This document shows positions 6,507 through 41,402 of a stretch of DNA of 64,000 nt, in pieces. The translations under genes and the position numbers were made by a program. The notes below the pieces were generated by a model, which worked only from the letters and a program-made list of their open reading frames with translations, was not told where the DNA came from and ran no database searches. Positions within the stretch are counted from its first letter, which is position 1; each line of letters opens with the position of its first letter. The stretch is from Actinomyces respiraculi (GTDB lineage Bacteria > Actinomycetota > Actinomycetes > Actinomycetales > Actinomycetaceae). The stretch covers positions 620,001-684,000 of the forward strand of contig NZ_CP063989.1 in the NCBI RefSeq assembly GCF_014595995.2. Direction: 5' to 3'.

Positions 6507-6801
6507 TCAGTTGGCGGTCACTCATCCCGGCCAGGTCCTCCCCAGCGATGAACACGCTGCCTGCGTCCGGGGTGTCCAGGCCCGCCAGGCAGTGCAGCAG
6601 GGTGGACTTGCCCGAGCCGGACGGACCCATCACCGCCACGAACTGGCCGCGACTGACGGCCAGGGAGACATGGTCCAGGGCCGTGACCTGCGCGCCGCCG
6701 GTGCCGTAGACCTTGCACAGCATGCGGGCCTCGACCACGGTCGGCGAAGCCGCATCGGCCCCGGACAGTCCCGGATAGGCGGATTCGGTGGAAGTCGGCA
6801 T

Positions 6802-40014: not shown

Positions 40015-40015
<1 letters not shown>

Positions 40016-40371
40016 TGGGAACCGACGTCGGCGCGGCCTGCTCCTGCGCGGAGGCTCGCGCCCACCTCGAGGCCTTCCTCGACCACGAGTGCGACGGGGA
40101 CCTGTCCTCGCGCCTGGCCCGGCACGTGGCCGACTGCGAGCACTGCTCGCGCCTGGCTGACGCCGAGAACCACCTGCGTGAGATCCTGCGCTCGTGCTGC
40201 GCCGAGCAGGCCCCGCCTGAGCTGCGTGAGCGGGTCATCGGGCGTCTGTCTGTCCTGCGGGCGAGGACGGCGACCTCCTCGACAACCGTCGTCACTGACT
40301 CCACGACTGTTCTCAGCAACGGGACGACGGTGCGCAGCCGAACCGTGCGTGTCGCCCGCTCGCAGTTGTGA
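40015..40371 (+). CDS. rsrA: Mycothiol-system anti-sigma factor RsrA
   Basis: A 118-residue zinc-binding anti-sigma factor. The ZAS signature His37-x3-Cys41-x2-Cys44 lies in HVADCEHCSR, with further cysteines at positions 9 and 11 and a Cys pair near residue 60. Under oxidation such proteins form disulfides, lose zinc and release SigH. The C-terminal 40 residues are Ser/Thr-rich and look disordered. It is coupled to sigH by an overlapping TGATG. Confidence 0.9.
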
Positions 40372-40396
40372 TGTCTCAGGACGTCGGTGTGGTGTC

Positions 40397-40470
40397 TCAG
40401 GGCATTGGTGATAGTTCTGTGTCAGGGCATTGGTGACACTTCGGGTGTTTGTGGGGGTGACACTTCGGGT
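40397..40470. repeat. Two pairs of short direct repeats downstream of rsrA
   Basis: TCAGGGCATTGGTGA occurs at 40397-40411 and 40422-40436 (25-bp step), and GGTGACACTTCGGGT at 40432-40446 and 40456-40470 (24-bp step). They start about 25 bp after the rsrA stop. No function is evident. Confidence 0.8.
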
Positions 40471-40737
40471 TGGTGTCGGGGGGTCTCCTCCGGCCGGCCG
40501 GCCGGCCACCGGGCCCGTGGCAGTTGCCGGCCTTCAGGCCCTGGTGCTGCCGCCAGCTCGTTGTCCCACGGGTGTGGATGGGCCCGGGCCGCCGGTGGCA
40601 CGCCGCTGGTGACCACACTGCGAACACGGGCGTCAGCTCCCCGGCGGCACCCCGGCTCATGGCCTGATGTCATGGTCTTCGGGGCAGGGGCCTGGACGGC
40701 GCGCGCCGAGCCCGTCCGCCTCGTTCCTCAGCCTTCC

Positions 40738-41017
40738 ATCTCGTCCCTCGGCCCTCGGTCTCGTCCCTCTACCTTCCATCTCGTTCGTTCACGGAACGAG
40801 ATGGACGTGTGCGGAACGAGATCGACGTACGAGAAGCGAGATCAAGACCTGGACAACGAGATCGACGTGCCAGGAACGAGCCTCAGCCCTCCATCTCGTC
40901 CCTCTACCTTCCATCTCGTTCGTCGGTCTTCCATCTCGTTCGTTCACGCAACGAGATCAACGTGTGAGGAACGAGATCGACGTGCGAGGGACGAGATCAA
41001 GACCTGGGCAACGAGAT
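40738..41017. repeat. Iteron-like array of ATCTCGT/ACGAGAT boxes on a 20-bp period
   Basis: Boxes ATCTCGT (one GTCTCGT) start at 40738, 40758 and 40778. Inverted boxes ACGAGAT (one GCGAGAT, one truncated to ACGAG) start at 40796, 40816, 40836, 40856 and 40876. The pattern repeats: ATCTCGT at 40893, 40913 and 40933, then ACGAGAT at 40951, 40971, 40991 and 41011. Every same-orientation step is exactly 20 bp. The first turning point is an 11-bp perfect stem, CCATCTCGTTC and its complement (40776-40786 and 40794-40804). The array is two copies of a block of about 150 bp. It is not a CRISPR, because the spacers are only about 13 bp and partly conserved. Confidence 0.95.
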
Positions 41018-41121
41018 CGACGCCGGTCCTCGTCGGGTCCTCCGGGCGCCGCGACCAGACACGCCCATCCTGGCGCGTGCTCGTGGCCCCTCGGCGGGCG
41101 CACGGCGCGCCTCCACCCTCC

Positions 41122-41188
41122 AACTCCTCGGTCTGCTCTCGAAAGTACGGCACAACACCGTATGTTCGAGAGAGCAAACCGAGGAGTT
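41122..41188. repeat. Long imperfect inverted repeat
   Basis: The left arm 41122-41150 begins AACTCCTCGGTCTGCTCTCG. The right arm 41158-41188 is its near-complement, with one substitution, a 2-nt bulge and a short internal mismatch. The loop is CACAACA. A stem of about 29 bp is far longer than a normal terminator and no U-tract follows. It lies 140 bp upstream of bL37 and could be a small palindromic element or a processing site. Confidence 0.85.
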
Positions 41189-41327
41189 CGAGACCGGGCG
41201 GGGCTGAGGCCGCTGGTGGTCGTGACCCGTGCAACCCGGTGCCAGGTGGATTCGCCGTCGCCGGGTGTGCGAGGATGGCGCGTGTTCAGTGCCCCGTCTG
41301 GGGCAGTCCAGACATGAGGAGGCCATG

Positions 41328-41402
41328 ATGAGCAAGCGCGGTCGTAAGCGTCGCAGCCGTGCCAAGTCCGGCGCGAACCACGGCAAGCGCCCCAACGCCT
41401 GA
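41328..41402 (+). CDS. 50S ribosomal protein bL37
   Basis: A 24-residue, extremely basic peptide starting MSKRGRKRRSRAK and ending ANHGKRPNA. This matches the actinobacteria-specific ribosomal protein bL37, whose mycobacterial form ends in the same ANHGKRPNA. The ATG at 41328 is preferred over the ATG at 41325 because GAGGAGG at 41316-41322 gives 5-nt spacing. The gene is monocistronic, with a large repeat-filled region upstream and a strong hairpin downstream. Confidence 0.9.
   Translation: MSKRGRKRRSRAKSGANHGKRPNA

Follow-up and report, generated by a model that had tools for sequence, protein, structure and literature searches.

Between the anti-sigma factor gene rsrA and the gene for a bL37-like protein, the chromosome of Actinomyces respiraculi carries 280 bp of short boxes that face alternately one way and the other. 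What is this array, and how did it come to lie there? The window analyzed here is a stretch of 64,000 nucleotides, bases 620001 to 684000 of a closed 2,912,106-base (2.91-Mb) chromosome. This genome is referred to as G000; other labels of this type (G015, G024, etc.) denote genomes, while L013, L017, etc. denote loci or stretches.

Two head-to-head units of boxes

The array resolved into two head-to-head units, each with the layout '< < < centre > > >', within the following series of features.

40015..40371, + strand: anti-sigma factor gene with a zf-HC2 zinc finger (PF13490), upstream of the array; rsrA by position behind a sigma factor
40372..41210, + strand: insertion with the array, ~840 bp, between rsrA and bL37; ends uncertain by ~16 bp
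40372..40473, + strand: IS-type end remnant, TGTCTCAGGAC..., matching paired, oppositely oriented ends
40738..40784, - strand: array unit 1, left arm; boxes at 40738, 40758 (one mismatch) and 40778
40785..40795, no strand: unit 1 11-bp centre, TCGTTCACGGA
40796..40882, + strand: array unit 1, right arm; boxes at 40796, 40816, 40836 (one mismatch), 40856 and 40876 (truncated)
40893..40939, - strand: array unit 2, left arm; boxes at 40893, 40913 and 40933
40940..40950, no strand: unit 2 11-bp centre, TCGTTCACGCA
40951..41017, + strand: array unit 2, right arm; boxes at 40951, 40971, 40991 and 41011
41108..41200, no strand: module C, a second dispersed palindrome, unrelated to the array and belonging to the window insertion
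41328..41402, + strand: gene for a 24-aa protein downstream of the array, bL37-like by eye, no Pfam match

The downstream protein is presumably bL37, the name that an earlier note on this DNA also used. That note had counted 15 boxes of 7 bp in 280 bp, and the count was reproduced with variants and a truncated box included: 12 exact boxes, two with one mismatch (40758 and 40836) and a truncated ACGAGCC at 40876. An extra one-mismatch box at 40829 lay off the 20-bp grid. The runs of three (<), five (>, including the truncated box), three (<) and four (>) boxes were as described, and the same-orientation step was exactly 20 bp inside every run; the 20-bp box pair had 10 matches at up to one mismatch, with 0 expected from shuffled windows. 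Both head-to-head turns (40778 and 40933) had the form ATCTCGT-N11-ACGAGAT, for which 100 dinucleotide shuffles gave an expectation of 0. The first turn, previously described as an 11-bp stem, needed a small correction, as on folding it forms a 12-bp stem closed by a loop of 7 nt. Folding of the window arrays as DNA gave z scores of -1.56 and -2.54; a relative's hairpin (n = 1) gave -10.9.

A coding origin, already thought unlikely, was rejected. The array is noncoding, the 20-bp step rotates the frames, and when a partner gene was sought among 2,159 ORFs near the G000 arrays, the 60 that recurred most often looked like translations of the arrays themselves. The same note had doubted a CRISPR origin, and rightly: CRISPR repeats have one orientation and unrelated spacers, whereas these boxes are head-to-head and their spacers share a consensus. 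We also agree that the neighboring genes, rsrA and bL37, give no explanation for the array. Rfam gave no matches within the window at gathering thresholds, and no match to the array was found in plasmids, phages or viral contigs (one search used a single exact three-box pattern).

The window array is part of an insertion

Genome G024 represents a sister species, with 95% identity in one flanking protein and 85 to 94% in DNA. In G024 the equivalents of positions 40371 and 41210 are joined and the two flank matches overlap by 16 bases, indicating that the window copy is an insertion of ~840 bp. The rsrA-bL37 gap measured 956 bp in G000 versus 102 to 187 bp in the 15 other measurable genomes, with four more unresolved. 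Neither the four-box pattern nor the covariance model described below detected an array copy in G024; since this genome is a draft of ~50 contigs, some repeats may have been lost from the assembly. Of 14 further array loci sought in G024, 13 were placed. Two, L023 and L026, were nearly clean insertions relative to G024, and others showed a replaced stretch or an alignment too patchy to judge.

The insertion is composite: besides the array, it contains the IS-type end remnant and a palindromic module. As a query it gave 57 matches in G000. In several Actinomyces genomes the IS-type end (words TGTCTCAGGAC and CAGGGCATTGGTGACAC) was present as paired, oppositely oriented copies ~1.4 kb apart. Its inverted counterpart, TGTCCTGAGACA, was found on the far side of the arrays at L013, L021, L023, L024, L027 and L030, so that these six loci have end words on both sides; the window copy has one on one side alone, and many other arrays have none within 1.8 kb. 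As several G000 arrays lie between IS-type ends, the spread of these arrays need not be their own.

Several features of these neighborhoods were observed in passing. Module C (CTCCTCGGT...ACCGAGGAG) had 11 matches in G024 (e.g., L088, ~6550 to 6640) and more in G000. By eye, module C is interrupted at L013 of G000 by an insertion that carries an array, and it is whole in G024. A truncated IS110-type transposase (PF01548) was located at L018 (3589 to 3909), ~1.1 kb from an array. At L017 (4742 to 7019), an additional segment of 2.1 kb that encodes an HTH-IrrE peptidase is bounded by two similar hairpin-type arrays, and 150 bp of the end of the neighboring gene is present on both sides of this segment. 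At L022 (5016 to 5930), four arrays are present within 0.9 kb of gap, where G024, as judged by eye, has a single ordinary hairpin.

Copies across the chromosome

The four-box pattern, at up to three mismatches, was carried by 48 places in G000. The word pair ACGAGAT-N13-ACGAGAT occurred 80 times on one strand and 68 times on the other, with 0 for a reversed-pattern control. Among 27 turns of the form ATCTCGT-Nx-ACGAGAT with x from 0 to 30, x was exactly 11 in 26, and the single exception looks like a chance occurrence. A minus arm, an 18-bp turn and a plus arm were present in 39 of the 40 clusters laid out; in the 40th (L042, 6684 to 6787) the turn was present and the boxes were mutated. The opposite junction, with a distance of 37 bp, was seen in these clusters only between adjacent units, and the window shows the same arrangement. 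In total, 45 units contained 335 boxes at up to two mismatches, mostly three to four per arm (L104 to L106 are outside this count). Apart from some free bases, the longer consensus of the unit was GRGGA-ACGAGAT-SRA in G000 and GGT-ACGAGAT-SG in relatives.

All 111 occurrences of the extended motif GGWACGAGATSRA in 442 kb of G000 were near arrays; this sample consisted of stretches picked around arrays, except for the window, the chromosome ends and L110. Of the bare ACGAGAT, 275 occurrences were near arrays and 70 were not. The extended motifs of G015 and G021 occurred two to three times per motif outside arrays in 179 kb. This near confinement to arrays argues against both uptake sequences and regulons. 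DNA uptake sequences of the Neisseriaceae are short words with species dialects that form inverted pairs at gene ends, and the Actinomyces elements resemble them in these respects, but the abundant scattered single copies of an uptake sequence were absent from both samples. Of the earlier proposal of a multi-operator array, an ordinary regulon has thus become unlikely, while binding of a protein to the phased boxes is possible and forms part of the reading that we prefer.

The other proposal had been replication or partition iterons. Plasmid iterons and centromere arrays consist of phased direct repeats near 20 bp with inverted parts, but an iteron or partition site is one array by a rep or par gene, whereas dozens of dispersed chromosomal loci were found here and the genes beside the window array, which encode an anti-sigma factor and a bL37-like protein of 24 aa, are not rep or par genes. 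No origin bias was significant (mean relative distance, 0.43; P = 0.08; 36 loci among the matches listed, compiled by hand). These results, with the 48 places and the lack of a detected copy in G024, did not bear out the iteron proposal. The lack of significant origin bias and of a detected copy in G024 also weighs against another explanation, namely, that the boxes bind a host protein of the chromosome-organizing or partition type, which would assemble outward from each centre into a symmetric filament with its monomers on one face and would have changed together with the boxes in each species. The fixed phasing and centre, the conservation of boxes where spacers are not conserved and the near restriction of the extended motif to arrays would all suit such a protein. 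Nevertheless, 27 of 49 genus genomes have no match, as described below, and binding to duplex DNA leaves the stem compensation of the spacers unexplained; we therefore consider this explanation quite unlikely.

Inner spacers of the two arms paired at 6.89 of 13 positions in 44 G000 arrays versus 6.96 for shuffled partners (P = 0.63), indicating that the hairpin is not maintained in G000. RNA folding of 85-nt G000 stretches was strong (z < -2 in 42 of 49), which we attribute to the two arms carrying the same unit in opposite orientations. Seven close copies differed at 28 of 595 box positions, 82 of 1,066 spacer positions and 268 of 3,227 flank positions; boxes thus changed about half as often as flanks (P = 0.002), while spacers did not differ from flanks (P = 0.56). 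This sequence comparison points to a constraint on the boxes that is real but modest. Among more distant G000 copies, boxes differed by ~10 to 16% and spacers by up to 36 to 55%.

Identical 20-mers in tandem runs were also found in G000. Together with the modest box constraint among close copies and the IS-type ends around several arrays, they are consistent with a mostly neutral origin in which template switching keeps palindromes perfect, slippage makes tandem 20-bp copies and IS cassettes spread them; template switching could also imitate compensatory change. However, one geometry in 22 species with different cores, with boxes kept while spacers diverge, calls for a constraint on the boxes, and a mostly neutral origin is accordingly very unlikely.

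One geometry with species-specific boxes

Pattern searches detected 3 of 49 genus genomes (G000, G023 and G040), and the four-box pattern, at up to three mismatches, detected 3 of 213 genomes family-wide, all of them Actinomyces; this pattern misses other dialects of the boxes. In G023 and G040 the element is simple, with two boxes per arm in 65 nt, and its spacers are largely complementary (11.3 of 13 positions versus 8.6 shuffled; 7 elements). A covariance model, R1, was built from 13 of these 65-nt hairpins, 11 from G023 and G040 and 2 from L017 of G000. With a short calibration and stricter filters, and with rows counting both strands, R1 matched 22 of 49 Actinomyces genomes at an E value of ≤0.01. 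G015, once set aside as a mere tandem repeat of doubtful kinship, was placed in the family by this model.

The layout was retained in the R1 matches, with a 27-bp stem, an 11-nt centre and boxes 20 bp apart, while the core of the box varied by species. The dialects were ACG-AGA-T, ACG-TGC-T, ACG-AAC-T and ACG-CGY-T, with cores of TGC or ATC in G015 and G021, AAC in G004, AAG or AAC in G059, CGY in one G052 element and AAC or ACC in several other genomes. Some inner boxes were off-pattern (e.g., two of G052), and several R1 matches were 64 to 75 bases long. Core identity was 0.86 within and 0.44 between species (label permutation P = 0.0002; 37 elements, the copies from the same species being nonindependent). 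The two boxes of one arm agreed less (0.77) than did boxes of different elements of the same species. Unit arrays were found in three species (G000, G015 and G021), and further species, for each of which one or a few loci were examined, may have expanded arrays.

The earlier observation on the window array is therefore correct, and the real pattern is larger than had been claimed. Restriction to one isolate with random variation, or loss of the spacing in relatives, had been named as the outcome that would speak against it; the element is shared by relatives, and its spacing is kept there.

Compensatory change in the stems

A feature unforeseen by the earlier note was the strong compensation of the hairpins in relatives. 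In the 13 hairpins of R1 itself, 89.5% of pair cells were paired, with 34 two-sided changes versus 11.3 in shuffled controls, and slid controls were paired at no more than 46%. A set of 24 hairpins outside R1 gave 91.8% paired cells and 157 two-sided changes versus 46.6 shuffled, with slid controls at no more than 38%. Twelve species contributed to this set, in which every hairpin is exactly 65 bases long and two are further G040 elements; other lengths (L120 to L125, L131 and L132) and most of the near-identical G015 and G021 copies were excluded. Detection with a structure-aware model and selection by length favor paired matches, so the two-sided changes are the stronger point.

Simple hairpins lie mostly behind genes, arrays in long gaps

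Positions relative to genes, which were called with a simple caller trained on the window, were determined for 38 hairpins from species with the simple form, two at edges being excluded. Convergent gaps accounted for 18 of 36, tandem for 14 and divergent for 4, and a stop codon faced the hairpin within 110 bp in 28 of 36. The convergent proportion exceeded a baseline of 15 of 91 gaps from the window and the G024 stretches (Fisher P = 0.0002). For the stop measure the baseline, from the same stretches plus L082 to L086, was 0.56 per gap and 0.17 by length (28 of 36 versus 0.56, P = 0.006). Of four elements outside this list (L050, the second of L173, L178 and L179), one is at an edge; the other three are in convergent gaps and have a stop no more than 110 bp away. 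Some simple hairpins keep one locus across species; such loci are orthologous and hence not independent.

Arrays were mostly in long gaps far from stops, with a stop within 110 bp in 7 of 49 cases in G000 and 5 of 29 in G015 and G021. The latter two genomes have nearly identical arrays with largely unrelated flanks, and at many of their 30 loci the similarity between loci fades within tens of bases outside the array. Some of these loci do share flanks, and L148 and L168 are orthologous.

These positions bear on the explanation that the elements are two-way intrinsic terminators and nothing more, with selection on an RNA hairpin, boxes shared by copying and the arrays of G000, G015 and G021 arising as runaway duplications. 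The placement of the simple hairpins and of three of the four additional elements would be expected of terminators, as would the strong stem covariation. One simple hairpin immediately follows a MerR-family gene that closes what by eye resembles the dnaK operon, and at two G000 array sites the corresponding convergent gap of G024 contains, again by eye, an ordinary hairpin (L017/L099 and L022/L097). Yet a terminator needs neither a fixed box sequence nor a fixed 11-nt centre nor a 20-bp repeat; the per-gap baseline is already 0.56, the arrays are mostly far from stops, and no T-run was visible behind the seven simple hairpins examined. Likeness to intrinsic terminators is thus seen in the simple forms and not in the arrays, and the elements differ further in their dispersal into unrelated intergenic sites. 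As a complete account, termination alone seems unlikely.

Comparison with REP and REPIN sequences

REP, BIME and REPIN sequences are dispersed intergenic inverted repeats that form hairpins, have many copies per genome and are lineage specific in sequence, and the REPIN unit is an inverted pair (PMC3116915, PMC3733652). Neither of these two papers uses the word Actinobacteria in its main text. The Actinomyces elements are alike in being dispersed, hairpin forming and lineage specific, with an inverted pair as the unit; that the pair is the dispersed hairpin unit is indicated by 39 of 40 G000 clusters, by covariation in relatives and by the unrelated flanks in G015 and G021. They differ in stem length, since the simple forms have a 27-bp stem, far longer than the 5 to 13 or 8 to 9 bp tabulated for REP stems (table, PMC3733652), and in having an 11-nt centre and 7-bp boxes every 20 bp in both arms, extendable into arrays. 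REP and REPIN sequences go with a RAYT transposase, but the flanking genes of the 38 hairpins included no partner transposase and gave only two similar pairs, one of them orthologous. REP families of the GTAG or CGTC type carry that tag terminally, at the base of the stem; in G000 and in seven elements of relatives, positions outside the last box held little information, and CGTC is present inside the arms of G015 and G021. No prior description for Actinomyces was found in the literature searched, where subscription journals mostly fall outside coverage.

Proposed nature of the element

The array in the window is best read as an expanded copy, probably IS carried, of a dispersed palindrome that occurs across the genus Actinomyces. 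In its basic form this element is an inverted repeat of 65 nt, with two 7-bp boxes 20 bp apart per arm and an 11-nt asymmetric centre, its simple form being a near-perfect 27-bp hairpin. A reader of the boxes is needed to account for the fixed step, the fixed centre and the box dialects, a hairpin stage to account for the stem compensation, and mobility to account for the spread into unrelated gaps. All three are covered by a mobile palindromic element that is REPIN-like, has boxes read by an inferred sequence-specific protein and often serves as a terminator; the terminator function fits the simple forms. We give this reading a probability of about 0.48.

Under the REPIN-like reading, the putative protein would recognize the boxes either phased on one face of the DNA or in an extruded single-strand hairpin. 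Because it would copy or retain those elements whose boxes are intact, box and protein would change together in each lineage. Behind genes, the hairpin would also act as a two-way terminator. Units have multiplied in G000 and in G015 and G021, and in G000 the boxes were kept as the spacers drifted. The simple hairpins that keep one locus across species behave as a fixed terminator might, which counts against the REPIN-like reading.

A bolder version, in which the elements form a new mobile palindromic class, is tentative and on balance rather doubtful. Here a modular hairpin would offer 20-bp units as docking sites for a dedicated predicted protein, core and protein would change together to give every Actinomyces lineage a dialect of its own, and growth in the number of units per arm would turn hairpins into the phased arrays.

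The sharing of one design by relatives with different core words suggests an undescribed family of mobile hairpin elements. Such a family adds a genus-wide set of dispersed hairpins to a bacterial branch for which none is described in the literature searched, and it explains part of the long repeat-filled gaps of the A. respiraculi genome. The arrays are ready markers for comparing strains, and the modular design, with its 20-bp step, 11-nt centre and interchangeable core, makes coevolution of repeat and reader testable.
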